Shown: in pieces, positions 8,895 through 60,116 of the stretch
Numbering within the stretch: the first letter of the stretch is position 1
How the letters are laid out: the number at the start of each line of letters is the position of its first letter
NCBI RefSeq assembly: GCF_964019385.1
Contig: NC_088645.1
Coordinates: 17,476,180-17,540,179, forward strand
Direction of reading: 5' to 3'
Length of the DNA: 64,000 bases
Origin: Sycon ciliatum
Taxonomy: Eukaryota; Porifera; Calcarea; Leucosolenida; Sycettidae
Position numbers and translations under genes: made by a program
The notes under the pieces: generated by a model
Told to the model about the DNA's origin: nothing
Database searches by the model: none
Seen by the model: only the letters and a program-made list of their open reading frames with translations

Positions 8895-9135
8895 TAAAAG
8901 TCCCCAGCTCTATTCTATATCATTTGCGCCGGAACTGCTGCTGTATAGCCCCAAGTCTGAAGACTTGGCAACTTCACGCCTGCACCTGACTCTTGCGCTA
9001 TGATACTCGGAATTTCCCTCCTTGCTCCCCCTTATGTTCTGGCTGCCCGTTTTGGATCCATCCGTTGCCTGATGATCGTAGTAATACGTGAAACTCAGAG
9101 TTGTAACAAAGCTTCCAATCTCTCTCTTGTATAAT
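8895..9135. repeat. About 240-bp dispersed repeat
   Basis: The segment from the CCCCAGCTCTATTCTAT region to AATCTCTCTCTTGT matches 50,245-50,495 in reverse orientation, including CACGTATTAC/CACGTAGTCACGATC and CGGCAGCC-like stretches. It is missing from the duplicated position near 23,770. No coding potential was recognised. Confidence 0.55.
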
Positions 9136-13486: not shown

Positions 13487-16400
13487 GGGGGAGGTTGGTG
13501 GCTACAATGACATGTAGATTACAATGTGCACAGGAAATCCCTTTTACAAAAATCCATTGACTAGATAACATGGCGGACCTGCCTAAGAAAGGCTAAGATA
13601 CGAGATAGGCCAAAGTTTAAAGTGTATTGATTTGAAAAACAAGTGATTCACCGAAGTACACATATAACGTGACTCACCTGCACATATCCGGCCATTTTGA
13701 GTATCTCGGATAGTGAATCCCTCGAAGCAATCGCACGAGTAGGACCCCGGAATATTCACACATTTTCCTAGACTTTGCGCAGAGTACGCAGCACAGTGGT
13801 GAGGTGTAAGAGAGCATTCATCAATATCCTGGCATTGAAGTAAGGTTCCATTGCCGATAACCTCATAGCCTTGCCCACAAACACAGGTATAGCTTCCAAG
13901 TTTATTTACACAGTGCAACGCATTATCACTGCGAATATATCCAGAGCAAGGAACATCAGTCTCTACACATTCATCAATATCGTTGCAAGTATAGGTTGTT
14001 CCATTTTCCGTGAGTTTATATCCATGTTGACAAGTACACCTGTAAGATCCCCACGTGTTGTGACAATGCGGACCCGAATCATGGTTCACACTGTATCCAT
14101 AGCAGGGATTATACGACGCTGAGCATTCGTCGTGATCTGAAGGGAATATTTAAAACATGCAGAGCAGTCATAGATTAAAAGTTTTAATTTGAAACACGGA
14201 TGTTGGGACAGTAATATAATCAATGTGCGGACAATAATATAATAAAATATATATATTATTATGTACTCAATCTGCGGACAGCATGCTGTTTCGTTCTTTT
14301 TGAACTCATCAGCGCAGCACAGAGAAAATGAGGCCGAACCTGATAGCAATGGAAATAAAAATTTCCAATCAGGCCCGAACGTACCATTATTATGTAGAAA
14401 GGAAAAGGACATAATATGTATGAATCTTCCCAGAACCTACGAGTTGGACTGCTGTTGGTTTGTTAACTGATTTGTAAGGTGCGACATTATGCTCTTGCAT
14501 GGCACAGGCTATAGCATCTTCTAAGCGATGGTCCTTGTTCTTGAACCTTCTTCTAGATTCTAGCATATTCAACTTGATTCTCTTGTCAGCCAGCTTGCTG
14601 ATAACATTATTGCCTTACTGCTCGCTATATAGGCACACTATTCCACTCTTCTGAGGCACCTGCCTCGCGCATTGCTTGCACATTGGCAATTCGTACGACT
14701 TGCACTCAGGACTTCAACTGAGTTCATGGTTCACAGACTTGAACAAGTTCAGCAAGATCTGCAATTTGGGTTTCTTATGCAGTTTTCAGGAATGATTGTG
14801 TGAGCCGCTGTGACTAGATGCGGATCGAGTCAGCGCATTGGTTGCGGGAAGGTCTGAATTAAGAAGGGATTCGGAACATTGTTTCGGTGAATTGTGGAAG
14901 GATTCCTTTCTCTTCACCTCCGATACGATTAGTTCGAAATGGTGTTAGTGGCTAACTTTGGAGAGCTGCTTGCTTCGGGCATCCAATTTATTAACGTTAC
15001 TTAGTGTCATTTAGGGGTTGTCCACAAATTAATATCAATATATTTTTAGAGAATGTGAAGAAGAAGTTGGTGCGACTTCGGCGATAATTGGACACCATGT
15101 ATTGAGCAGGGAGTGGTGCTTCCTTGCAGGTTTTCCCAGTGGAAGGTTCTATGGACTTCTCGTGTGCTCTGGATGGCAGTCGTGAGTCAGTCAAGTGAGA
15201 ATTCAAGTCGGCCGGAATAGCGCAAGCTCACTCGCAGGGAGCAAAACACAATTACGGAAAATAAGAAAGAGTACAAAAATCGACGTGAATACATGTAGCA
15301 GCAGAAATGTGCCAAAAGATATTCATGCAAAGTTCTTTGTTATTACTGAAGTGCACAGTGGAGCAGAGAACCAAAAAGGAAGACAGAACAAAGTGGAAGA
15401 AATAACGATACAACGGGAATCCGGAGCAGCATGCTGATGCATTGGGCCTACCTCCCCCGACCATGGGCCTCGAGCGGCAGGACCAAGCACCAAGCACAAA
15501 ATACATTTTGAAACTCGGATGTTGAGCCATAAATAAATGTAGAAAGGAAAAGGACATATGGATACGAGTTAAGATTAGCGCTACGGAGATGTGTTGAAGC
15601 TAGGTGTCAGGACGTCGAATGTCTCAGTATTCTTGTCAGTTTTGTGCCTAGTTATTGCACTTTCTGACTGTATATAGTATCCAGTTACAGTGATGGAGAG
15701 TTACTCTTAACTCGTATCCATATGTCTTTTTCCTTTCTACAAGATACATTATATAGGTATAACAGAAAAATAGAAAATACGAAAGTATGTGTGATGTAAC
15801 GAAACAACATGAGATGGCAAATTGTCTGGTGTTGCAGATGAGGTACAGAGACTCGAGCAGAGAGAGAGAGAGATAGAGAGAGAGAGATAGAGAAAGAGAG
15901 AGATAGAGAGAGAGAGAGAACAAAGAGAGAGAGAGTGAGAGAGATGGAGATAGAGAGAAATATATAGAGAGAAAGAGAGAAAGAGAGAGAACAAAGAGAG
16001 ATAGAGAACAAAAAGAGAGAGAGAGCGAGAACAAAGGGAGAGAGAGACAGAGAGAGCGACAGACAGAGAGAGAGAACAGAGAGAGAGAGAACAAAGAGAC
16101 AGAGAGACAGAGAGAGAAGGAGAGAGAGAGACAGACATACAGACAGAGAGAGAGAAAGACAGACAGAGAGAGAGAGAGAACAAAGAGACAGAGAGAGAAG
16201 GAGAGAAGGAGAGAGAGAGAGACAGACATACAGACAGAGAGAGAGACAGACAGTTGCTGTATAAAATTTTAACAACCTAAAGAGAAGTCCAGCACAAGGA
16301 CCAACTGACATCGAATCCCATCTAAACGGGAATATTTATTACATAAAGAACCAAAAAGTAAATAGCGTACCTTCTTGGACATGCAAGGCGATACGTGGCT

Positions 16401-30800: not shown

Positions 30801-33800
30801 GGCAACACACTACTGAGTAAGAAGTGAAACGAAGAAAGCTTACCTCCCAATCAGTTCGTCCTTCTTTCCGGAAAGGGGTAAGCCATGTTCACGGAGTAGC
30901 CTCTTCAGCTCAGGCACTCTCAAGTCGGCTAAAGACGAAACTTTCTTGGCACTCATAGCTGACGGACCAGTCGGTGATACTCCACGACAGGCACTGCCTG
31001 GAACTCGACGTGAGGGCTAACTCTCGAAATACAAACAACCACAACTGTCTGATGTCCAAGACGAAAATTTTGGAAGAAGTGAAGTCTTTCTCACCACGAA
31101 ATCTCAAGTATACCCCCGGCGCGAGCCGATGACGTAATTGTAAATAAGGACCATTGACCGTAACTTTGGTGTCTCTCAATGGATTTGGGTGAAATTTTCA
31201 CCACACACTCCTGCCACTATGCTGGCTCTCTGGATATGATTTAAAAGTTCTTGCGCCTCACTGACAGGCTTTCCAGGCCGCAAAAACTCAACATTCCGGC
31301 ATAGTGCCACGGTGTGCGAGCCACCCAGGAGCCAAACAAATGCATTTACAATTTTTTTCATATTTTCTTGCCCATTCTGTCCGTGCGCAGGATTCAAACC
31401 TAACAAAAGTCCAAAACCAGCCATGGGTGGTGAGATAGGGCCCCTCAACGTGGCCCTGGAATCTGTCACAACGGCAGGAGTGGGCGTTCTCTCACAGACT
31501 CCCACAGACCGAAGTCATTTTTTGAATATTTTAGGTTTAGCCCGTGCTACGAGGTCGTACCTTTGATACAACATCCAGTGCTGGGACCTCCACAGCAAGC
31601 CATTTCCACAGCGCTGCACACCAAATCCAGGATACCCTCAAAAATCGGCAAAGTCTACGACTCACGTTCCACTACTGCCTAGTACTGAATCCTACATGAC
31701 TTCTTGACACGACTCAAACTTGCCAAAGTCACTAAATCCACGTCAACCACAGTAATTAAGCCACATATCTGCAACGTCACGAGGGTGCTGGCAAAAGTGC
31801 AGCCCAATACATGGCTAAAAACGTGATTTTTTGGACTCTCCTTGCAAGGGCACATTTTCGGCCATAAATCTTGAACGGTTGGTCAGATCGAGACACAATT
31901 TTCAGATATTTTGGAGCTATTCAAGCCCTTTCAACTGATGTAGCACTCGACATGAATTTACAATTTCGAATTATTGGAGAATTTTTGGGTGATATGCCAC
32001 GTTAAGGAGAGTGTTCTTTGCATCGGTGTGGATGGTGGCTTTGTTCTATTGAGTATATCACTAACCATCACAATCGGCACCATTATAACCAGGCAGGCAT
32101 GGGCAGTCGTAAGATCCGTTAAAATTTTGACAATACCTGTTGTCATCATTGGTCTTGTTGTTACAGCTGTGAGTACCGGAATTACACTCATCTATATCGG
32201 ATTATCAGCGATGTGGACCAGTGATGTGTATGAATAGCAGCGATGTAGATCAGGATGAGCGATTATACAGACAACAGAAACACATTGGCACACACCCGCA
32301 TACCCAGATAATCATAAATATCAAAAAGAACAAGTAGCTGTTCGCCAATGATGATCGTACAAGTGCGGTCATCAAAACTCTCTGTTATCCGTACCCACCG
32401 GTGCTAAATTTCACCAGATTACACTACCTCAACACTTCATTCTTCAATCTCCGGATAGAACTATTTCGGCCTTTGAGCATTAGCGCTGCACAGAGAAAAT
32501 GAGGCCTAGCTTGAGAACAATACAAAATGAATTTCCGAAACCAGATTTACACCAGGCCCGAACATACCTTGCCAGAGTGCTCAAACTGACAAGTTTGTGA
32601 ACACTGCGTTACGCAAACAGCAAAGGCATTACCCCACATGAGAGTTCTCATATCTATGATAATATCGACATGTGGTTTCCGGTTTTCTGGCGAGGTAGTT
32701 TACATAAAGTATTAAACTTTGATCTTGGACTCTTAGAGGAATAAGTGATAATGCATTATACAAGAATATGGTGTAAGCAAAAGCGTCAATTCCATTGCAA
32801 TTACACAAGATTTTGCTCTGTTAATCAACTTAGAATCTATGTTGCAGAAAATCAATTGCTGAGCTTGGATTTAAAACGCCAATCAACCTATTCATGTCCA
32901 AATATTTCCATGCAAGATAATAATATTCCGTGGGCATGTCTGTTAGAGATCACGTTGTTTACAATTTGCCTTGGTCCACCAAACACTTTTATGCTTTAAA
33001 AGGCACGCTCAATATTGCCAATAGCATGCCACTCCGGCCAACTATATTGATCTCAATACAGGTTTACCATTAGGTAAATCCTTTCCCCAGATATTCAACA
33101 AGAAGCAATTCATATAAAAATCACATAACTCCTTCCCACACGAAACAGACCTACATTACATAATTATGATCTTTGCAAATTACTTACCTACTTGTAAACA
33201 TTCAGTACTATTAGGAGTATCTTGGAAGGCGAATCCCTCGACGCAATTACACGAGTAGGACCCCATACTGTTCACGCATCTTCTAGGACCTTTTGCAGAG
33301 TACGCAACACAGTGGTGAGGTGTAATAGAGCATTCATCAATATCCAGGCATTGAAGTAAGGTTCCATTGTCGATAATCTCATAGCCTTCTCGACAAACAC
33401 AGGTATAGCTTCCAGCTGTGTTTACACAGCCTGGCTCATTATCACTGCGAATATATCCATAGCAAGGATTATCAGCTTCTACACATTCATCAATATCGTT
33501 GCAAGTATAGATAGTTCCATCTTGAGTGAGTTTATATCCATGTTGACAAGTACACCTGTAAGATCCCCACGTGTTGTGACAATGCGGTCCAGAATTTTGG
33601 GTTTCCGTATATCCATAGCAGGGATTGTACGACGCTGAACATTCATCGTGATCTGAAGGGAATATTTGAAGCATGCAGAGCCGTCATAGATTAAATGTTT
33701 TAACTTGACACTCGGATGTTGAGCCAATAGTATACCAGTACGTAGAAACGAAAAGGACATAATTATGAACCTGCCAAGAACCTACCGAGTTAGACGGCTG

Positions 33801-36729
33801 TCGGTTAGCGCTTGGGAGGTGCGTTGGAGCTAGGTATCAGGTGGTCAGTTTTGTGCCTAGTTGTTGCACCGTCTGACTGTATATAGTATATAGTTACAGT
33901 GGTGGACAGTTACTCTCAACTTGTATCCATATGTCCCTTTTTTTTCTAAATGGTTTAACAGTTGCTTTTACACGAGGCACGGAGTGATTCCGATCCATAA
34001 TATTTTAAAAGTTTTAACCGCAGGTTTCATGTATAACGGAAATCATCATGTCAGACAACTGATCTATTTTTCTCACCATAGAATTCGAGCGGGCAGCTGA
34101 CAACAAAAGCCTGCGGACACGAATCTCCAATTTCTACATGTATGAGATTTAATTCAATGTGCCACAAAAAGAATAGAAGGCAAAGGATGTTAGACAATGC
34201 TTCTCCACAGATGTACGTTCCACAAAAAGCATGGAATAGGCTGGTGCTTGGTTGGGACTATCAAGAGCCATTTTTTCAAACTTAACAGCAATACCGCGAG
34301 GAGATTGGCTGCTCGCCAATATTGATCGTACTAGAATCAAAACTCTCCGTTATCCGCAACCAATCAGTGCTCAATATCACCAGATTACACTACCTCCACA
34401 CTTCATAACTCAATCCCCGGATAGAACTGTTTTGGCCTTTGTGCATTAGCGCTGCACAGAAAAATGAGGCCTAGCTTGAAGCAATACAAAACGAATTTCC
34501 GAAACCAGATTTAAACCAGGCCCGTACCAGGGAGTAGTACAATACCGGTATTTTACTACTCCCTGGTTGTAATATCTATAGCAGAGATTCTAGGATGCTG
34601 AACATTCATCGTGATCTGAAGGGAATACTGAAAATGCTGGGCAGTCATTGATTAAAATGGGCAAAATAGTTGATCATGCACGAGACATGGAACGCAACGC
34701 TTCCGATTCATTTTAAGTTACATGTACTTCGAATACTCAATCTGCGGACAGCATGCTATTTCGTTCTTTGTGAACTCATCAGCGCAGCACAGAGGAAATG
34801 AGGCCGAACCTGATAGCAATGGAAATAAATATTTCCAATCAAGCCCGAATGTAGCTTGCCAGAGTGCTCAAACTGACAAGTCAGTGAGCTCTGCGTAATG
34901 CAAACTGCAAAGGCACTACCCCACAGGAGAGTGCTCAACTACTACAAGAGCAGGAGCGAAAATACTCAATCTGCGGACAGCATGCTGTTTCGTTCTTTGT
35001 GAACTCATCAGCGCAGCACAGAGGAAATGAGGCCGAACCTTCAAGTATATGTATAATCACTGGTTTCAGGAACACAGGTGATTATCATACAGCTGATTGC
35101 ATTGGTATTATCTTATTGTGCGAGTGGATATCTAGCTAACATCTACAATTCCGGTATACGAATCTATGAGAATGAACTCGTATGGAGAGCCAAGGAAATA
35201 TTTATTGAAAACATGGAAAACATCAGCCCGCAAGTTATGCATAAGAGTCCACCGACTACATCAGATATTGAACTGTTATGCGTAGACAATCTAGCAACAA
35301 ACCGACATGGAGTATTAAGACATTCCACGCTGGGCAACATCTGCTATAGGTGGTTGACTGTAAGGCACAACTTGTGCACCACTGTTTTCTACGAGAGTGA
35401 GACTATAATTATATTATGCGAAACCCCAAGCAAGGAAATCAAAGGATTCCGAGCGGGACATTTCTACACAACTTCTATCTGCAATGTGACATACGAATCT
35501 ATGAGAATGAGACTGCATTTGATACGAAACTCCAAGAATGGAATGGAAAGGATTCCGAGCAACGCTACTCCACAGATAAGCGTTTTGAAAAACCAGAAAT
35601 GACTGGTGCTTGGATAGGACCACCAAGAGCAAAATTTTCAAAGTTACTAGCAGTATTCTAGAGGCCGTTTTAGAAATAAAGGTTTCCAAGTATATCTCAA
35701 TGATGAGTAAATTATTTTCTCTATTTTTCGCTTTCGGATATTCAAGTACAGTAAAGCCTGTAACTAAAGACCACCGGGACTAGCGACCAGCCTGGTACTA
35801 CAGACGACTTTGCCAGGCACGGACTGTCGCACATTAGTACATGGTTGTGCGGTGCAAACCTCTAACTAAGGACCACCTGCCACTAAAGACCGCTTTCTCT
35901 GGCCCCAAGGGGTGGTCGTTAGTCACAGGTTTTACTGTAGTTGGAAACGACCGTCCTACTTCATGCAAATGATACAGAGGACACTCATCGAAGTAAATGT
36001 AGCTGCAGGAATATACAGTCATGACTGTGCATCTACATGTCATGTACCATAGTGACTCAATGAAATTGCTGTACAATGTACTGAACATCTTTCCAGGTGT
36101 TCAGTAAAACACATTCCAGAAAAGCAACGACTAACTGTGGTCTACTGCGCCTGCCTAAATGAGGAGATTTCCTACCTAACGAAGGAGTTAAAATAACATA
36201 CCTTCGTGGACGTGCAAGGCGATGAACGGTTCACGTGCTTTATTGAGTTGAATCGCACACTGGCTGAGAGGAGGTGATGGCGCACTCTGGACTGTGAATT
36301 TGATTTGCATCCCATGTGATGATTGCACGGAGAAATTGAGATTGTGACTGGATCCATATTTACTACTATCGCTGAACCTAACTGACCTTGCATTTGACCA
36401 ACCACCGTGGTCAAATGACTTAGACCTAACATAGAAGTGACAATTTCCGGCTGCCGTGAATGAAATGCCTATTGCTGCAATAGTGCAGCTCCCTTGAAAC
36501 TCGAAGTTTATGCTATAAATAGGATTGTAGCCGAGGACGCGATACGATAGTGTACCAGGTGAATGCGATGTGTACCACTTGAATGTTTGAAGTCCACCGT
36601 TCAAGCCTTCGTAACTATTTTGACGATGAGCGACTGGACGGCAACTTGGGGTCAAACACCATACCTCAGTTGTGATAACAACCAGTGTCGTCACTAGAAC
36701 AATCCAACTGTATTCGGTCTGGAAATAGA
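24295..36729 (-). CDS. Receptor gene B2 (N domain, 3+1 EGF, TM, tail B), open
   Basis: The visible exons are 36729-36202, 33652-33188, 32191-32066 and 24821-24295, all phase 1 and free of stops: about 548 codons plus a missing first exon. It differs from B1 in having a fourth, single-module EGF exon and a short stalk. The last intron contains a 6.1-kb DNA transposon starting 64 bp beyond the fourth EGF exon, and the first long intron contains tandem fragments, an EGF relic (34,571) and a pogo-type MITE (35,749). Splicing across the transposon cannot be judged here; the coding sequence itself is undamaged. Confidence 0.7.
24822..25882. other. B2 intron left of the transposon
   Basis: This aligns loosely with the B1 intron right of 10,871. 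Only short non-coding features were seen, and no further exon. Confidence 0.4.
26158..27645 (+). pseudogene. THAP-DDE transposase, one in-frame stop
   Basis: The start ATG at 26,158 places the THAP zinc finger at the N terminus: C5 and C10, a 'FPKP' stretch near residue 65, and C108/H111 (VCGAHF). An acidic linker and coiled coil (about 145-215) follow, then an HTH (LARLTGVSQPTISRIIRHW) and a DDE_4-type core with candidate catalytic residues D333 (IIIDALEI), D408 (VIMADKG) and E454 (HVERAIQQI). A single TAG at codon 231 (26,848) splits the frame; both halves are in the same frame and otherwise undamaged. Readthrough is possible, but a recent inactivating mutation is the simpler reading. Confidence 0.85.
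28192..30956 (-). CDS. Transposon-encoded SAP-SWIM protein
   Basis: The first exon (30956-30844) encodes a SAP-like DNA-binding motif and ends AG/GTAAGC in phase 2. The main exon is open from at least 30,237 down to 28,192. It has a SWIM zinc finger (C166-x-C168 and C178-x-H180, numbering from 30,210), a Pro/Ser/Glu linker with short repeats of 'SGEP', and a C-terminal half with 'NTCPLDNGLM' (C397) and 'GQHFVSH' (H621), spaced like the Cys and His boxes of ubiquitin-specific proteases. Related transposons carry a nuclease here; none was seen. The phases of the two exons do not join directly, so a small exon is missing. The peptidase reading is a hypothesis. Confidence 0.6.
30440..30510 (+). 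other. tRNA-Leu-like 3' half
   Basis: CTCTTCGGAGGC resembles a long variable arm and is followed by GTGGGTTCGAATCCCACCGCTGCCACC, a T-arm with an acceptor strand. No matching 5' half lies within 90 nt upstream, so it is a fragment and not a working tRNA gene. It falls inside the transposon. Confidence 0.45.
30844..30956 (-). CDS. SAP-motif first exon of the transposon protein
   Basis: ATG at 30,956 starts a short exon containing LADLRVPELKRLLREHGL and SGKKDELI, the helix-turn-helix pattern of SAP domains. It ends at a GTAAGC donor. SAP plus SWIM on one protein is known from transposon-derived genes. Confidence 0.65.
32066..32191 (-). CDS. Single EGF exon of B2
   Basis: The acceptor ATATAG/ATGAGTG and donor GATG/GTTAGT bound 126 nt with phase 1 at both ends. 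The translation has the six EGF cysteines: DEC, SC, YC, YDCPC and DC, with G-S-Y and PGY-N-G in the expected places. It begins 64 bp from the transposon end. No counterpart was found in B1 or in the A genes, so it is either a B2-specific gain or was lost elsewhere. It is too short and unusual to show as a long open frame. Confidence 0.8.
32192..33187. repeat. B2 intron with an internally duplicated segment
   Basis: 32,335-32,640 is repeated, diverged, at 34,310-34,540, including the stretch CACCAGATTACACTACCTC and GCATTAGCGCTGCACAG. The remaining 32,640-33,187 is AT-rich with no exon seen. Confidence 0.6.
33188..33652 (-). CDS. Triple EGF exon of B2
   Basis: The acceptor CCTTCAG/ATCACG and donor GTAG/GTAAGT give 465 nt, phase 1-1. 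Three cbEGF modules (DHDEC, DIDEC, DIDEC) align with the B1 exon throughout. The second module reads C-V-N-T-A-G-S-Y and keeps all cysteines. Confidence 0.9.
34571..34615 (-). pseudogene. Relic of a B-type EGF exon start
   Basis: CCCTTCAG/ATCACGATGAATG repeats the acceptor and first codons of the EGF exon (D-H-D-E-C-S-A-S) and is then stopped by TAG at 34,592-34,590. Homology ends about 45 nt into the exon, so it is an abortive partial duplication. Confidence 0.7.
35749..35937. mobile_element. pogo/Tigger-type MITE, 189 bp
   Basis: The ends CAGTAAAGCCTGTAACTAA and, in reverse, CAGTAAAACCTGTGACTAA are flanked by TA on both sides. Sub-terminal ACTAAAGACCAC and GACTAGCGACC repeats match the larger relic at 56,094-57,112. 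Confidence 0.8.
36202..36729 (-). CDS. Leader and N-domain exon of B2
   Basis: The acceptor ATTACAG and donor GAAG/GTATGT give 528 nt, phase 1-1. The leader (YSWIVLVTTLVVITT) has no in-frame ATG, which supports a separate first exon. The N domain keeps the four cysteines ('TPSC', 'QGSC', 'GNC', 'SQC') and the signatures G-G-L-Q-T-F-K-W, I-K-F-T-V and R-E-P-F-I-A-L-H-V. Confidence 0.75.
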
Positions 36730-42849: not shown

Positions 42850-44510
42850 AATGTAAACCTGTATCGAATACATTCAGAACCAGATTGTCTGGATTGTGTT
42901 GATAGTCCAGGGAAATTATCCACGTAATTTACACTTACATTGTAGATATGATAACCAGTTCATGATTGCTAGGATGTGTGGGCAGTGGACACCCTGGTAC
43001 ACTGTGCTGGCTCTATCCAGGCCGTGAGCCAATCATGACTACTTTCAGCTATGATTCGATGCTGTAATGGTTGGTTTGCTATATTGGCCAATGCAATCGC
43101 CTAGATCTACTTTGATACGCTTCTAAGACACTTTCAGAGATGATCACCTAACCACATCACTAATAAACACCTATTTGTCAATGTAGAGTCTGTAGGGCAA
43201 CGGGAACTCGTGCTGGCGACAGAATATCTCAGCGAATCTCCTTTTTCAGGACTACTAACGCTTATATCAGCCGCACAGGTCATGAAGTTTCAGACACCTT
43301 TCTTCTGCCAATCTCTGTGTGAATTAGCCCAGGTAGTATCTCGATACGTGCGGCCATGGTTCTCCAAGTACACACCTCCTTCCTTTAGTGAATGAACGAC
43401 TCAATGAAGCGTCCGTATTCTCGAGTGCTCTGCTGTCGCTAGTCCTCTCAGCAAGCCCAGTTGCATAACAGTATCATTGGTACAATAGCAAGCATCTCGT
43501 CAGACCCAAAGACAGAGCATCTCACGTGTTACCGGAATAGAGTGTACAAATGTGGTCGAGGGGCCATTAGTACCGGTCACAAAAAACACATAGTTAATCG
43601 TTTTCAAGTACTGAAGATCAGGAAGCGAGGTACCACATGTTGATGTTTGGCAACGGATGGTATGCATTGGTGAATGCGCATATCTTCGCTTACTTGTCCA
43701 CATAGTTGACAAAGCTGCAGCTTTTCACAACTATTCAGTAACCTCCAATAACAACTAAATTACAGATACATGAGTAAAGCTATCTGTTTTCGTTCTTTTG
43801 ACATTCACAATCATCAGTTGTACTTGTAATTACACCAGAATATGGAGTACGAGAAGGAACACATCAATAAAATTGTTCTTTTTTAGTCTATATTTACACC
43901 GTTCGGTTTGTGATAGGGGCGCACTCGTTGAGATATTATGTACATGCATATCCCCAGATTTGAGTATAATGCTCCCTAGCAATCAGCAATGTTGTTAGGT
44001 TGAGCACTCTTGCCTTAGCGCGAACCCCTGCCGCTCGCCTTATGCAATGCTCACTGCTCTTGGAGCATTTCGAGCACTCTTGGCTGGGTGCAGCTCTTTA
44101 TAAAAATGCTTTGCTTCACGGAAACGTATTTCATTGCGAAGAGCTGCGCTTCGGTCCTCTGAGCTGTGCTGAGGAGCTCTAACAGAGCGAAACAGTTGCT
44201 GTCCACAGATTTAAGTGCATATACAATGTATATTATAGCTTGCCTGTCACGGTCGCGCTGTCGAGCACATTCGCCTGATCCGATAATTTTGTCAGTTCCG
44301 ATCAAGTTGACACCCTTATACAGCAGGTATCTTCCTGTCTCGAACCTATGTGTTTCTTCAAACTTCTAGTTTGGCAAGGGATGCAACCACATGTATGGTA
44401 GATGGAGGAAGTATTCCACTTACACCAGTACGTATTCATGTTTCATTGCACAAACACTTCTCTTGAAACGTAGAAGCAGACCACAGCCATTCCCTTTAGC
44501 ATCGAGATAT
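42850..44510 (-). promoter_or_regulatory. A-gene upstream block, copy 3
   Basis: Contains CAGACCCAAAGACAGAGCAT followed by CACGTGTTACCGGAATAG (an E-box-like CACGTG lost in the A1 and A2 copies). It is closely similar to 57,850-59,340, including GTCAGTTCCGATCAAGTTGA near 44,290. Function inferred from position. Confidence 0.4.
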
Positions 44511-44672: not shown

Positions 44673-46300
44673 GATAATAATAAGAATAATAATAATAATA
44701 ACAGCTCGCATGTACCCCATGGGTGAGATCACCCATGGGGCTAACGCCTCTGTCGGCAAAAGAGTTGAAAACGAGAAACACATGACATACACACCTTCTT
44801 CATTCTGTTATTGCAGGGAAAAACTACCTCGATTCCACCATGAGCCTAGGCATGAGGAATATAATATTAAGTACAGAATGTTATTTACCAAAAGGATATT
44901 CAAGTAAGCGCAGATATTTTTTAGCATGATAAGTTAGTACATTGATTCACAATGCCGAGCCAAGCTTCCCTGTCTTGGGAAATAGTTTCCGCTTCGGCAA
45001 TGGAAACGTTTATTGTCTTTAAGTCATTCTTGATGTTGTCGATCCATCTGGTGACGGGGCGTCCCCTGGGCTTCTTGATGTCTTTGGTGTCGATTGAAAG
45101 TCTTAGAGCTTTGTAGGATGTCGAGTCACTGCCTTCTCTGATTACATGGCCGAACCATAACAAGCGCCGTTCCCTGCATGTTCTGGTGATAGGCAATTGG
45201 TTGGACAGCTTGTATAAGTTTTTATTCGATATTTTTTGGGGATACACTACGCCGAGAATGGATCGTAGTTTGCGGCGATGCCACGTGTCGAGCCTGTTGC
45301 CGAGTGCTGCTGTCAAGGTCCACAGGCCACAGTTGTATAGTAGAACCGGAAGGATAAGAGTGGTAAACATAAGCATTCTAGATAATAAAGTGTGTCTCTT
45401 CCAGGCTATTGTGCCAAACGCTCGGTTAGCGGCATTGATACGGTTCTCGATGTCACTTCCAGATCCCAAGAGACTTCCAAGTAGTTTCGTCTTTCTCCAT
45501 GCGTCATCATCCTTGGAAGGAGTTACAAATTGAGTTTTTGTTAGATTTAATCTCAGGTCATCCTGGGCGAAAATTGGCTCACATTTCGCTGCAGCGGCCA
45601 CCACAGCATCACGATCAGTGTCATGTATTGTGGTGTCATCTGCATACTGTGAGAAATGAGTAGGCAGGCATGAAGGGGAGGTGCAGGCTGCTCTCACCTG
45701 CCTCATCGCACCTTCTGCGTAGACAATGAACATGGCCGGAGACATCGGGTCCCCCTGAACCACGCCGATATTGGTCGAGAAGGGAGCACTGAGCTGCCCA
45801 GCAATCTTCACCCTAGCTGTCGTATCGGAGACTAGCAATTTCATCATTGAGGTGTGTGCACCCGAATCGGCCATTCGATCGAGCGCCTTGCCACGGTTCA
45901 CTGTGTCGAATGCACCGCTGAAATCGAGTAATGCTGCCGAATAGTTCCAATTTCCGAGCAAAGCTCTCTCACACAGAGACCGCACACAGAACACCCCATC
46001 AGCTGTTGAGCGACCTGGTCTGAAACCGGCTTGTGACTCATCCACAAACTGCTGAATATTGGTGCTAATTCTCTTTGTGATTATGGTTGTAAGGACTTTC
46101 CGAACCACTGACAATAGCATTACTGGTCTGTAACTCTTCGGGGCTCCTTTCGGTTTGCCATTTTTGTATATTGGCACAATAATTCCAGTAGTCAGGTCTG
46201 CCGGGCAGTGCTGTAATTGGCGAATGACATTGAAAAATGAGGACAGCCAACCAGCTAGAATGTCAGAACCTGCACGCAGCACCTCACTGCTATATAATGC
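44673..46300 (-). mobile_element. 5'-truncated non-LTR retrotransposon
   Basis: The element contains an open RT frame and ends toward 44,673 in an (AAT)n-type microsatellite (plus-strand AATAATAATAAGAATAATAA), as many LINEs do. A perfect hairpin lies in the 3' UTR at 44,715-44,740. No endonuclease or ORF1 is present. The 5' edge is set by eye near 46,270. Confidence 0.7.
44715..44740. repeat. Perfect 12-bp palindrome
   Basis: CCCCATGGGTGA, a GA spacer and TCACCCATGGGG. It may be a 3'-UTR hairpin of the adjacent LINE. Confidence 0.9.
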
Positions 46301-46351
46301 CGGCAGACAAATTGGCAGAATTCGGTACTTTTTCTGGTACGTTTCATGCAT
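44921..46351 (-). CDS. Reverse transcriptase, open 476-codon frame
   Basis: RT motifs are present in order: GIIVPIYKNG and SYRPVMLLSVV, QAGFRPGRST, ALLDFSGAFDTVNR, GVVQGDPMSP, the catalytic QYADDT, then a thumb region with RRKLRSILGV and a C-terminal RRLLWFGHV. The aspartates of A and C boxes are intact. The first 20 or so residues look like flanking DNA. Clade not assigned; the WFGHV tail is shared by several invertebrate LINE lineages. The undamaged frame suggests a recent arrival. Confidence 0.75.
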   Translation of the reverse strand: MHETYQKKYRILPICLPALYSSEVLRAGSDILAGWLSSFFNVIRQLQHCPADLTTGIIVPIYKNGKPKGAPKSYRPVMLLSVVRKVLTTIITKRISTNIQQFVDESQAGFRPGRSTADGVFCVRSLCERALLGNWNYSAALLDFSGAFDTVNRGKALDRMADSGAHTSMMKLLVSDTTARVKIAGQLSAPFSTNIGVVQGDPMSPAMFIVYAEGAMRQVRAACTSPSCLPTHFSQYADDTTIHDTDRDAVVAAAAKCEPIFAQDDLRLNLTKTQFVTPSKDDDAWRKTKLLGSLLGSGSDIENRINAANRAFGTIAWKRHTLLSRMLMFTTLILPVLLYNCGLWTLTAALGNRLDTWHRRKLRSILGVVYPQKISNKNLYKLSNQLPITRTCRERRLLWFGHVIREGSDSTSYKALRLSIDTKDIKKPRGRPVTRWIDNIKNDLKTINVSIAEAETISQDREAWLGIVNQCTNLSC

Positions 46352-48658
46352 GTTTGGTATGTGGATACAGAAATGGAGCAGAATTCGAGGAATTGCCCGC
46401 CATAAGGTGTGTATGGTTCTGCCAATTTCACTGCTTTTCGAGCAGAATCTGCAACCTTTTCGAGCATTATCCCCACACCCCTACATACAGCTCAGCACCA
46501 ACAGCTCACAGCTTGCATAGAACACCACAATAGACGCAATAATGCATGTGTTGCATCATGCACAGAGACTGTACCGTTGCTCAGGCTGTAACCACATTAT
46601 AGTGCTATTCACACCCGACAGAGGCGAAAGGCTGTGTTAGCTGTAACTGCAAGTTTCACGCATTTTAGCGATCATCAGACAGCAGCATTCAACGGACAAG
46701 TGTGTATACTGCTCTGTATATTCCTGTATTGAGCACTCTACCTCGCGCTTCCTAGACCGGCCTTGTTTGTTAGTGCTATTCATTCGTTCTTTCATTCAGT
46801 CTTGCTATGATGTCGAAGCGCCACAGTCAAAAATAGCACCACACTTGAACATTCGCAAAGTGGATGGGATTTTCGGTCTTTGACCACATGCTGGTGAGCT
46901 TATCTACTCACCTCCCACCGCTTTAGGAGCTGCATATGCGCCTTGACCCTTGAAGGGTGGTGGCGTTCCTACGGATGCGGACAACTCGGTCTCTAACCGA
47001 GTCCCACGCGACTCGTGAATCGTGAATTAAAAAAATTTGAACATTCGCATATGCCCTTGCAAACATCCAGCCTAATTCCTGCCTGGAGCTCTTTGACTCT
47101 CTTTTTTCGACACCCTCATCTCCTTGTATACGTAGAGTTATCGTGATATGCACTAGCATTCCACTTCGCTACTTGCATGAAGCTCTGAGTTACAAAGTGA
47201 TTGCTCACATACTGTGCTGTGTTGTCAGCTCTGACCGGGCTGAATTGTAGCACGTCTAGCACCCTGGCTACTCCAGTCTTGCACATGTGCATGTACGAAC
47301 ATGCAATGTGTACAAGACTAAAGGTAAGGTCTATGTATGCTGCAGGAATCATTCGATATACTTTGGTGGTGTGTATGCGGACCGGACGCTCGCAATGGCA
47401 AAACAAGGTAAGTGGTCTCTAACCCCACTACCTGAGCCCCTTACTAAAGAGGAGGATATTTCGATTCAGCTCACTGTTAACTCTGATAATGGTCTTTGTG
47501 GCTATGTCGCTGATTGGTCGCCTCCCTAACGACAAAACTGGCCACGTTCTAAAATGTATTAGGGTGCAGAAATTATTTTGTAAATGACAAGCATCACGCA
47601 GGCATTTCGTTGACAATCATTGTGCGGGTGGCGTGGATGAGACGCCACGTAGGCAATCCATCCGATGCTACGGGTATGTCAGATGTGGCTTCCAAGACTA
47701 TCGCTTTGGCCTAAAAATGTCTGTACAGTGTTGGTACTTCTGATCATTAACACCGTCAGAAAAGTTAAAACCATGACATTTTAATGTCCAAGACGGCGAA
47801 TTCATTAGCGGGCCCAGGAGGATTCGGTTTCGAAACATTTGAGTTTCATTTGAACATCCCAACATGAGAGTTTCCATTTGGACATCCCAGTAAATTCTAG
47901 GTTGATATCAGCTCTTACCTGGGTACAATCGTCTGTCAAACTACGGATTTTTAATTTTATTTTGTAGAGTTGTAGTAAGCTCTGATATCATTGCTGAAGA
48001 GAAACGAATGCCGAAACAATAGAGTTCCGAAAATACGGAGCCCTGATGAACTCGCGGATCCACTGTCGTGAGAAAGACAATACGTGAGACACAAGGTCAT
48101 TTGGACGGCGCTAAACGAGGTATTGTACTTGATTAAAGCCACCCAATCATTCTGGACTTGTTTTTGCTGCTATTAATATTATTCTTATAAGCACGTCCAT
48201 TTTTGCTGGGGCCCCCATTGGATGGAGGTTGCCCAGGTTCGCATGTGCCAAGCTGATTATGCCAACGCCTCATGACGAAAACATACAGAGAGAAACAAAT
48301 CGTGCGGAAACGAAACAAGAACAGTATTCGTAGAAGCAAAAAGGAAGCTACATGATAACAAAAAACAAAAATCTAAAACAAAAACAAACAACAAAATTAA
48401 TTTGCTTCTATACAGTAGTTCACTAATAATGAATAACGATTTCATAGTGACATAATTGGAGGAGTTATGCATGGAGCAGTTGATTAATGGGCTTGATGCA
48501 TAGGCTATACCTCGAAGTATTCAGAGGATAACATGTACAAAGAAAGAATAATTCAGGACGAAAAGAAAGTGAGGGGATTCGAAATATTGTTACAGTCATG
48601 TGTCCGTGACCATATTAACTAAAGATGATTTTCAGCGGATGACACGAATATAAGTAAC
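46352..48658. other. Gene-poor stretch between LINE and ribozyme array
   Basis: A copy of the SINE-like repeat of 18,569 lies reversed at 46,920-47,030 (CCTTGAAGGGTGGTGGCGTTCC). An open frame at 47,287-47,529 has no family signature. Otherwise I see AT-rich DNA without exons. Confidence 0.5.
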
Positions 48659-48815
48659 AAGTGATTACACAGAAAGGGTTTTCTCCCCACACCGGAGCTC
48701 GCGCTATTCCGCCGACTTTACTTGACACTTGACTGACTCACGACTGCCATCCAGAGCACACGAGAAGTCCATCGAACCTTCGACTCGGCAAACCTGCAAG
48801 AAAGCACCACTCCCT

Positions 48816-48861
48816 GCTCCATACACAGTGTTTCGGGGAATTCACCCCTCATCAGTTGAGC
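48816..48861 (-). ncRNA. Hammerhead ribozyme, unit 1
   Basis: Same core as unit 2 (CTGATGA, stem II GGGG/CCCC, GAAA) but with TGGAGC instead of TTGAGC after the cleavage site, leaving one mismatch in stem I. Probably weaker. Confidence 0.8.
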
Positions 48862-49293
48862 TTGAGTAGGCTGAGGAAGATTGTGCCTGAAGAGCACCAC
48901 TTATATAGTGCTCTCCAGGCACAAACATCACCAGGGATACAAACTTACAGAGACGCTCCGTTTTCAGCGCGACAAACACCTCGTGAACACCAGATAGCAG
49001 CGTGAGTCAGTGTCGCTCCTGGACGGTGAGACAGACGTCGAGGACGCTCGGTCATTCGCAACGCTGTCACCTCCAAACCAACTAGTCGCAAGCCCGCGCT
49101 GGGCACAACAGTACGAAGTAGTGGTTGCGACTTCGGCGATAATTTGTAAGAAAGGGTTTGCTCCCCACACCGGAGCTCGCGCTATTCCGCCGACTTTACT
49201 TGACACTTGACTGACTCACGACTGCCATCCAGAGCACACGAGAAGTCCATCGAACCTTCGACTCGGCAAACCTGCAAGAAAGCACCACTCCCT

Positions 49294-49339
49294 GCTCAAT
49301 ACACAGTGTTTCGGGGAATTCACCCCTCATCAGTTGAGC
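49294..49339 (-). ncRNA. Type I hammerhead ribozyme, unit 2
   Basis: Read on the minus strand: stem I GCTCAA, core CTGATGA, stem II GGGG-TGAATT-CCCC, core GAAA, a three-pair stem III (ACA-CTG-TGT), the cleavage triplet GTA, then TTGAGC closing stem I perfectly. All invariant hammerhead core nucleotides are present. Confidence 0.92.
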
Positions 49340-49945
49340 TTGAGTAGGCGGAGGAAGATTGTGCCTGAAGAGCACCACTTATATAGTGCTCTCCAGGCAC
49401 AAACATCACCAGGGATACAAACTTACAGAGATGCTCCGTTTTCAGCGCGACAAACACCTCGTGAACACCAGATAGCAGCGTGAGTCAGTGTCGCTCCTGG
49501 ACGGTGAGACAGACGTCGAGGACCCTCGGTCATTCGCAACGCTGTCACCTCCAAACCAACTAGTCGCAAGCCCGCGCTGGGCACAACAGTACGAAGTAGT
49601 GGTTGCGACTTCGGCGATAATTTGTAAGAAAGGGTTTGCTCCCCACACCGGAGCTCGCGCTATTCCGCCGACTTTACTTGACACTTGACTGACTCACGAC
49701 TGCCATCCAGAGCACACGAGAAGTCCATCGAACCTTCGACTCGGCAAACCTGCAAGAAAGCACCACTCCCTGCTCAATACACAGTGCCAGCGCGGGCTTG
49801 CGACTAGTTGGTTTGGAGGTGACAGCGTTGCGAATGACCGAGGGTCCAGGAGCGACACTGACTCACGCTGCTATCTGGTGTTCACGAGGTGTTTGTCGCG
49901 CTGAAAACGGAGCGTCTCTGTAAGTTTGTATCCCTGGTGATGTTT

Positions 49946-49985
49946 GTGCCTGGAGAGCACTATATAAGTGGTGCTCTTCAGGCAC
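49946..49985 (+). promoter_or_regulatory. TATA motif within a 15-bp inverted repeat
   Basis: GTGCCTGGAGAGCAC and GTGCTCTTCAGGCAC (one mismatch) enclose TATATAAGTG. The same structure occurs on the minus strand in units 1 and 2. It may be a promoter placed to start transcription just before the ribozyme, or an RNA hairpin. Confidence 0.5.
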
Positions 49986-50006
49986 AATCTTCCTCAGCCT
50001 ACTCAA

Positions 50007-50052
50007 GCTCAACTGATGAGGGGTGAATTCCCCGAAACACTGTGTATTGAGC
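50007..50052 (+). ncRNA. Type I hammerhead ribozyme, inverted unit
   Basis: Identical to unit 2 in core and stems; predicted cleavage after A50046. It lies 22 nt beyond the TATA-containing hairpin. The short stem III is typical of natural type I hammerheads that work best as dimers or in tandem transcripts. Confidence 0.92.
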
Positions 50053-50234
50053 AGGGAGTGGTGCTTTCTTGCAGGTTTGCCGAGTCGAAGGTTCGATGGA
50101 CTTCTCGTGTGATCTGGATGGCAGTCGTGAGTCAGTCAAGTGTCAAGTAAAGTCGGCGGAATAGCGCGAGCTCCGGTGTGGGGAGCAAACCCTTTCTTAC
50201 AAATTATCGCCGAAGTCGCAACCACTGCTTCGTA

Positions 50235-50899
50235 AAGTGATTACACAAGAGAAAGAAAAAGGAGAAGCTGTGTTGCAACTCCGAGTTTCACGTAGTCACG
50301 ATCAGCAGGCAACTGATGGCTCCAAAACCGGCAGCCTAAACATAGAGGAAGCAAGGTTAGAAATACTGAGGGTAATACCGCACGAGTCAGGAGCAGGCGG
50401 AACGTTCCTTAGTTTTGAGAGTTGAGGCTATGCAGCAGCAGCAGCAGTTCCGGCATGAATAGAATAGAGCTGGGGACTTTAGAAATGCGATTACATGCAC
50501 AGAGATCACACTGATCAGAATTGTTCAATTGTAGGTTGTACTGAAACACAATAACACTTCAAATGAAGCTTCAGTTGTGATTGACATTGCCCTTTCATTT
50601 GGTTTTCCATAATCAAATATTTGGCAACGTCTCCGTGAAATTACAAGTTGCCAAACCCCTCGCCTGTTGGGTGCAATGCTCATTTTTGTCTACAGTGAAG
50701 ATATGTTGTCTGCAGAAACCATATTCCTGAAGATGGTCCTTGCTCAAACATTCCAATGATATTATTCTTTTTATTCTTTTTCAGTGGTTTATGTAGCCCA
50801 GAGACTGTTTGGAGAGTGTTGCGAGAATGTATGGTTATACTGGATTGCCGCAATGAAGTCCACGCATATTGAGAAATATGTGTTCAAGAGCTGAGAGAT
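50235..50899. other. Spacer downstream of tail B3
   Basis: 50,245-50,495 is a reversed copy of the dispersed repeat at 8,895-9,135. 50,500-50,899 shows nothing coding. Confidence 0.5.
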
Positions 50900-59629: not shown

Positions 59630-60116
59630 CGCCTGTGTGGATTCACAGGAAGTGTGAGTTACGAAGTCTGAAGAAAACGTCGAACGGACTCTGCTGGGAT
59701 GACGACTACACCATAGCTCAGTGGTTAGAGCATCGCTGGCTACAAGCGAGGGTCCCTGGTTCGAGTCCTGGTGGTGACAGTCAATTTTTCCTTCAGACTT
59801 TTCCCGTTTGTCTCTTTCCCTCAAACCAGTTAATATTTTATGACTTGGGGCTCCCCGCGTGCTAGTTTGTACGTGAAGTGTGTGGGTTACAGTGAGGGCT
59901 GCGTCCCACCCGCCTGTGTGGATTCACAGGAAGTGTGAGTTACGAAGTCTGAAGAAAACGTCGAACGGACTCTGCTGGGATGACGACTACACCATAGCTC
60001 AGTGGTTAGAGCATCGCTGGCTACAAGCGAGGGTCCCTGGTTCGAGTCCTGGTGGTGACAGTCAATTTTTTCTTCAGACTTTTCCCGTTTGTCTCTTTCC
60101 CTCAAACCAGTTAATA

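Follow-up and report, generated by a model that had tools for sequence, protein, structure and literature searches.

The compound structure at 48672–50234 of the window (the whole stretch of 64,000 nucleotides analysed here) is a single insertion event, and the 478-nt element of which it is made shows the insertion anatomy of Penelope-like elements (PLEs) without any PLE gene, since it matches their tail, their inverted arm and their target-site duplication (TSD). The explanation that we favor, at a probability of about 0.76, is that of a retroelement without open reading frame (ORF) but bearing hammerhead ribozymes (HHRs), i.e., a retrozyme in the broad sense, moved in trans by a Penelope-type reverse transcriptase (RT) and GIY-YIG endonuclease. 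The value of the insertion is that it ties animal retrozyme-like elements to the PLE machinery and gives a rule of paired starts, with one outer end at each of two sites, A and B.

Repeat comparison resolves 48671–50234 into 2.3 direct units of 478 bp, starting at 48671, 49149 and 49627 (spacing 478 and 478), followed by one inverted partial unit. The initial annotation, made from the letters alone, had claimed two 478-bp steps, an inverted unit and a perfect 13-bp target duplication around the whole, all of which are confirmed; its third unit “broken inside the ribozyme” does break there, at 49786 (unit position u470), but it is just a 160-nt piece and not a full unit. The same annotation had proposed a retroelement inserted in one event, unless the 13-bp repeats were part of a larger duplication. 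The repeat AAGTGATTACACA is identical at 48659–48671 and 50235–50247, and the identity stops there; since sister copies have TSDs of their own, of 12–15 bp, the duplication of the target is genuine, and the proposal of one event stands. Unit positions are numbered in the ribozyme sense, u1 being the base after the predicted cut (window position 49299), descending to 48822. The parts of the insertion are as follows:

48659..48671, no strand: left copy of the TSD (AAGTGATTACACA), perfect over 13 bp, compared with the right copy and with sister copies
48672..49786, − strand (ribozyme sense): arm A, 2.3 direct 478-nt units, with site A (u150) as sense 3' end
48816..48861, − strand: unit 1 hammerhead with an intact core and, in stem I, TGGAGC in place of TTGAGC (one mismatch); limits taken as those of unit 2 minus 478
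49294..49339, − strand: hammerhead of unit 2, complete, with stem I GCTCAA/TTGAGC, CTGATGA, stem II GGGG/CCCC, GAAA and stem III ACA/TGT
49786..49787, no strand: inner junction, where u470 of arm A meets u198 of arm B within the third ribozyme
49787..50234, + strand: arm B, one partial unit in inverted orientation, with site B (u188) as sense 3' end
50007..50052, + strand: complete hammerhead in the inverted arm, the cut being predicted after A50046 by analogy with known hammerheads
50211..50232, + strand: AC-rich stem-loop, u165–186, at whose 3' foot arm B starts (from sequence, folds and family pattern)
50235..50247, no strand: right copy of the TSD

This copy, thus, has A (u150) on its left and B (u188) on its right. 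Arm B is 448 nt long and has an internal gap of 21 nt (260 bp present against the 281 needed for u198–478), and the two arms meet without microhomology and without any inserted base. The 478-nt unit has a GC content of 53% and a longest ATG ORF of 44 aa; an ORF with RT and GIY-YIG, as an autonomous PLE should have, was not found in it.

A structure scan for the core and the three stems found core and stems I–III complete at 49333 (−) and 50013 (+), in agreement with the two ribozymes, with complete cores and matched stem I GCTCAA/TTGAGC, that had been noted from the start; these lie at 49294–49339 (−) and 50007–50052 (+). By sequence and pairing, the element carries a type I hammerhead with a complete core, in a minimal form whose stem III has 3 bp; of the four hammerheads within the insertion, two are complete, a third carries a mismatch in stem I and the inner junction interrupts the last. 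For the whole 64-kb window, the scan returned six hammerheads, against a mean of 0.01 and a maximum of one in 100 random first-order sequences, and four of the six lie outside the insertion (48659–50247). Rfam showed no hammerhead for the 478-nt element, be it at the gathering score or with E values of up to 5; the likely reason is that stem III has 3 bp only. The initial annotation had predicted that the tandem ribozymes would release 478-nt RNAs, which could circularise. As both ends of the insertion are located 150–188 nt downstream of the predicted cut, a linear monomer ending at that cut cannot be the whole template.

Other hammerheads are present in the window. A further retrozyme-like family, built of 229-nt units with a type I hammerhead, was seen at 34732–35040 (−) and also at 14277–14383 (−), 32461–32650 (−) and 44155–44203 (+); it amounts in the window to 1.35 units plus single or diverged pieces, with 3' ends apparently just past the ribozyme and no A/B pair. 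A third hammerhead-like motif (CTGATGATCG...CGTGAAACT) occurs at 9069–9095 (+) and 46652–46678 (−), with 0 occurrences expected by chance; the latter copy lies about 170 bp upstream of a frame matching RVT_1 (44921–46480, −), and motifs resembling it are found near an RT-like frame in locus L039.

A genome search for further copies had been recommended together with the initial annotation, and it was productive: 39 loci of the 478-nt family were fetched from the 538 Mb searched (313 contigs). The unit search gave 150 matches from the best 40 of 646 first-look candidates; one has to keep in mind that, with 40 of 646 candidates scored, the 39 loci represent the copies most similar to the unit of the window rather than a random sample. 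Loci L060, L061, L069, L071 and L073 were replaced by larger fetches (L080–L084), L081 being then dropped as a duplicate of L080; L049 and L050 (near L048), as well as L063 (like L062), are probable duplicates, L042 holds an additional older, diverged copy, and the one-armed state of L059 is uncertain because one side runs into N. With up to 3 mismatches allowed, the stem-loop u165–186 matches the genome 3796 times and the reversed pattern 3 times, and the family is, therefore, large; it is also young, with a difference of about 1.3% between loci.

An insertion was scored as two-armed if a plus arm comes after a minus arm; a piece of 21 nt that faces inward beyond the A end of L051 does not count as an arm. 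Among the 39 loci, 25 are two-armed, with 26 insertions because L084 has two, one is the duplicate L081 and 13 are one-armed. The compound structure, at first deemed unusual, is on the contrary the commonest form in this set (26 two-armed insertions); the resident PLE copies listed have this layout too, and a like structure has already been described for PLEs (PMC3846280). The 478-nt insertion of the window is, thus, no freak: it has the form usual in its family, which is similar to that of PLEs.

In the 26 two-armed insertions, the arms point outward in the ribozyme sense (head-to-head), and 25 of them pair an outer end at A with one at B, while 0 are A/A and 0 B/B; if ends were independent and equally frequent, 25 A/B pairs would have a chance of 0.5^25 = 3e-8. 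Raw outer ends of these 25 insertions range over u149–167 for A and u184–195 for B. The ranges are narrower when the ends are defined by TSDs in ordinary sequence, namely u150–153 for A and u184–188 for B in 14 of 14 insertions (including L084b); in L080, sited in an AT repeat, the ends are 155 and 185. The exception to the A/B pairing is L047, with ends at B and u446. As for the 13 one-armed loci, some of them duplicates of one another, ten end at B and three at A, and L058 is a single case with a 3' end at u189 and a 5' end at u150. One of the one-armed loci is a long array of about 16.8 units (L083, 521–8570, i.e., C13:13563020–13571069), in a shorter fetch of which (L071) private variants are common to non-adjacent units, as if the array were becoming satellite DNA. 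Site B is the 3' foot of the stem-loop CGAAGU-CGCAACCACU-ACUUCG, and site A lies about 34 nt upstream; the 135 nt around this stem-loop fold no better than shuffled sequences (z +1.9). A second sample, the first 100 exact stem-loop places listed, all on contig C1, contains 16 opposite-strand neighbour pairs within 4.5 kb, none of them in a fetched locus; 15 are head-to-head and one is inward.

These features have their counterparts in PLEs. In Frangieh et al. 2024 (PMC11167929), a purified PLE protein is reported to cut both target strands and to extend both of them, with a preference for ATT, and to have two adjacent internal start sites on the RNA, most often in an AC-rich stem loop; what lies between these two sites is the PLE “tail”, of 30–40 bp. 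The ends at u150–153 and u184–188 would mark two such start sites. In Arkhipova et al. 2013 (PMC3846280), the typical Penelope insert consists of direct pLTRs and an adjacent inverted pLTR with a TSD, plus an optional 31-bp tail on one inverted pLTR; tandem and head-to-head arms within one TSD, as in a PLE insertion, are likewise found in our family.

Such a strict pairing of one A with one B suggests that a paired enzyme complex primes both ends on the same RNA; among the hints of a single RNA with two start sites, this rule is, we infer, the strongest. Arm-to-arm sequence identity was tried as a proof of one RNA and is uninformative: in a comparison that excluded eight loci, the arm of the same locus was closer than the best other locus in 3 cases, tied with it in 14 and farther in 27, mean differences being 1.33% for another locus, 0.78% for the other arm and 0.48% for the same arm. 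A lap test, in which inner ends would pile up at B after one lap of a circle, gave 4 of 60 against 1.9 expected and is unconvincing.

TSDs were surveyed in 36 insertions (35 loci). Exact TSDs of at least 11 bp (12–15 bp) were found in 13 of 20 non-microsatellite targets versus 8 of 380 swapped flank pairs, these eight matches being either element sequence at the boundary (five) or target sequence common to two loci (three). The flanks have an AT share of 0.50–0.97, mostly at least 0.65 (raw shares), and many targets are ATT/TAA repeats. L075 and L084, on different contigs, have a common TSD (TAATAAACAAGAA) and differing inner junctions, perhaps because a repeated target was hit twice; target sequence is also common to L052 and L068. 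Inner junctions are spread across the unit. The joint has no unmatched bases in 16 of 26 cases, and seven of these 16 simple joints show a microhomology of 3–4 bp (about 5% expected for each), as determined by exact inspection since BLAST overlaps overstate it; the other 10 of 26 contain 1–52 unmatched bases. Junction distances are slightly non-uniform, leaning larger (KS p 0.049). The junctions look like end joining of two cDNAs started independently.

An RT of Penelope type, which the initial annotation had suggested looking for, is present in the genome. There are at least 13 GIY-YIG matches (best 150 of 944 candidates scored), and upstream of one of these, 401 bases code for a piece of RT in the same 807-aa frame. 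We take this RT piece to belong to PLEs, on the basis of PLE motifs and of the GIY-YIG domain in its frame; its Pfam RVT_1 match (E 0.0003) is below the cut-off of that model, and no chain in PDB matches it. Such an RT lies within 3 kb upstream at 4 of the 13 GIY-YIG places, and the RT piece has at least 150 matches (best 150 of 1576 candidates scored). Among the 150 places listed, opposite-strand RT neighbours within 8 kb are head-to-head in 15 of 15 cases, and there are 15 same-strand neighbours, 10 of which are at 2935 bp. Searching the genome with RVT_1 does not single out PLEs (21675 first-look candidates). No PLE with the same tail or stem-loop was found: for the 11 PLE RT places listed on C1, 0–33 Mb, the nearest listed exact stem-loop is at least 103 kb away (100 of 3796 stem-loop places listed). 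In L067 (2728–3101), a 5'-truncated PLE RT fragment lies less than 1 kb from a copy of the 478-nt element; it gave no tail.

Movement by PLE proteins might proceed as follows. Both target strands would be cut about 13 nt apart, leaving 3' overhangs, a step to which the TSD and the published cutting and extension of both strands by a PLE protein point. The target 3' ends would then prime reverse transcription inside the element RNA, one at A (u150–153) and the other at B (u184–188), where the ends are observed. The cDNAs may traverse several units, on circular or multimeric RNA; the multi-unit arms seen in the genome are compatible with either. The two cDNA ends would be joined head-to-head at variable places, often with the short microhomology or few extra bases seen at the junctions, and gap filling would duplicate the target. 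We would give slightly less than even odds to a broader proposal, in which PLE integration is obligately paired: a two-subunit complex on one RNA would hold a pair of start sites separated by about 34 nt and would assign one of them to each target 3' end, so that tail, inverted arm and TSD would be traces of one event, which small hammerhead RNAs would parasitise, possibly as circles. A counterpoint to the favored explanation comes from the in vitro work on the anole PLE, where the two strands did not differ in their start sites (PMC11167929), and because of this the one-each rule is not predicted by that element.

The inverted arm has rival explanations. A single cDNA could snap back, prime on itself and copy itself, a model proposed for PLEs, there on an antisense template (PMC3846280); it would account for the head-to-head layout and for the L042 junction, which is symmetric (u186/u186). 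We consider such foldback improbable, as only 2 of 26 inner junctions lie within 25 nt of symmetry, with 2.8 expected, the others being asymmetric; moreover, arm lengths differ widely, and nothing in foldback predicts that the second outer end should be fixed at A once the first is at B. L1-like twin priming also makes an inverted arm within one insertion, the second strand priming at an internal place that varies along the RNA. Although RVT_1 is abundant (the 21675 first-look candidates mentioned above, and two window frames that match it), priming of this kind by a LINE is as improbable as foldback: both starts are within 4–5 nt of fixed sites in 14 of 14 TSD-defined cases, and in the ends that were inspected neither poly(A) nor a 3' end repeat separates the element from its TSD. 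Lastly, a satellite array might have been rearranged later by recombination and inversion, with no single insertion at all; the array of about 16.8 units, with its private variants common to non-adjacent units (seen on the shorter fetch), as in satellites, would speak for this, but TSDs tightly flank the whole compound and the same outer ends recur at unrelated sites, so that this origin is highly improbable.

The most serious alternative is rather a variant of our favored explanation, with which it is compatible: the element would use the same PLE machinery but be an ORF-deleted PLE instead of a retrozyme, its ribozyme and circles having no role in its spread. The architecture matches that of PLEs, for which minimal HHRs have been reported (PMC7761336), and in vitro the anole PLE still inserts when its HHR is mutated (PMC11167929). 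Against it speak the 115 intact hammerheads counted in 35 loci with an exact-core pattern, though the family is young (the above 1.3% between loci), and a PLE sharing the 478-nt unit was not found in our searches. We regard this variant as possible, if somewhat doubtful.

Mobilization in trans by PLE proteins, our preferred reading, combines components of known kinds. Penelope/Poseidon PLEs have the same partial tandems and inverted arm, one-side tail, TSD, type I HHR and AC-rich stem-loop at an RT start, a putative one here (PMC11167929, PMC3846280), and AT-rich targets may be a further similarity; unlike them, the 478-nt element has no RT or endonuclease ORF. Metazoan non-LTR retrozymes, as described by Cervera and de la Pena 2020 (PMC7229834), also have a type I HHR, ORF-less tandem units of a few hundred bp and a TSD of more than 4 bp; they differ by RNAs of about 170–400 nt (478 nt here), by a canonical HHR (minimal here) and by a GC content below 50% (53% here), the latter being a trait of the known set and not of the mechanism. 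The words “inverted” and “tail” have 0 occurrences in the main text of that article, and we came across no head-to-head arms or A/B ends in the sections considered. Plant LTR retrozymes are ORF-less and HHR-bearing as well (PMC4918200) but, as told in PMC7229834, have a type III HHR, LTR, PBS, PPT and a 4-bp TSD. In the literature searched, mainly titles, starts of abstracts and passages, with most subscription papers outside it, we found no published link of retrozymes to PLE tails or inverted arms, nor the one-A-one-B rule. The enzyme moving animal retrozymes has been left open, with PLEs named “a strong candidate” (PMC7229834, Discussion); the 478-nt copies with their PLE fingerprint are direct genomic evidence on this question. 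They also constitute a natural data set on PLE inverted arms, which dual priming fits and simple foldback does not.

Elsewhere in the window, two tRNA matches of equal score are located 281 bp apart on the + strand (59709–59776 and 59990–60057).
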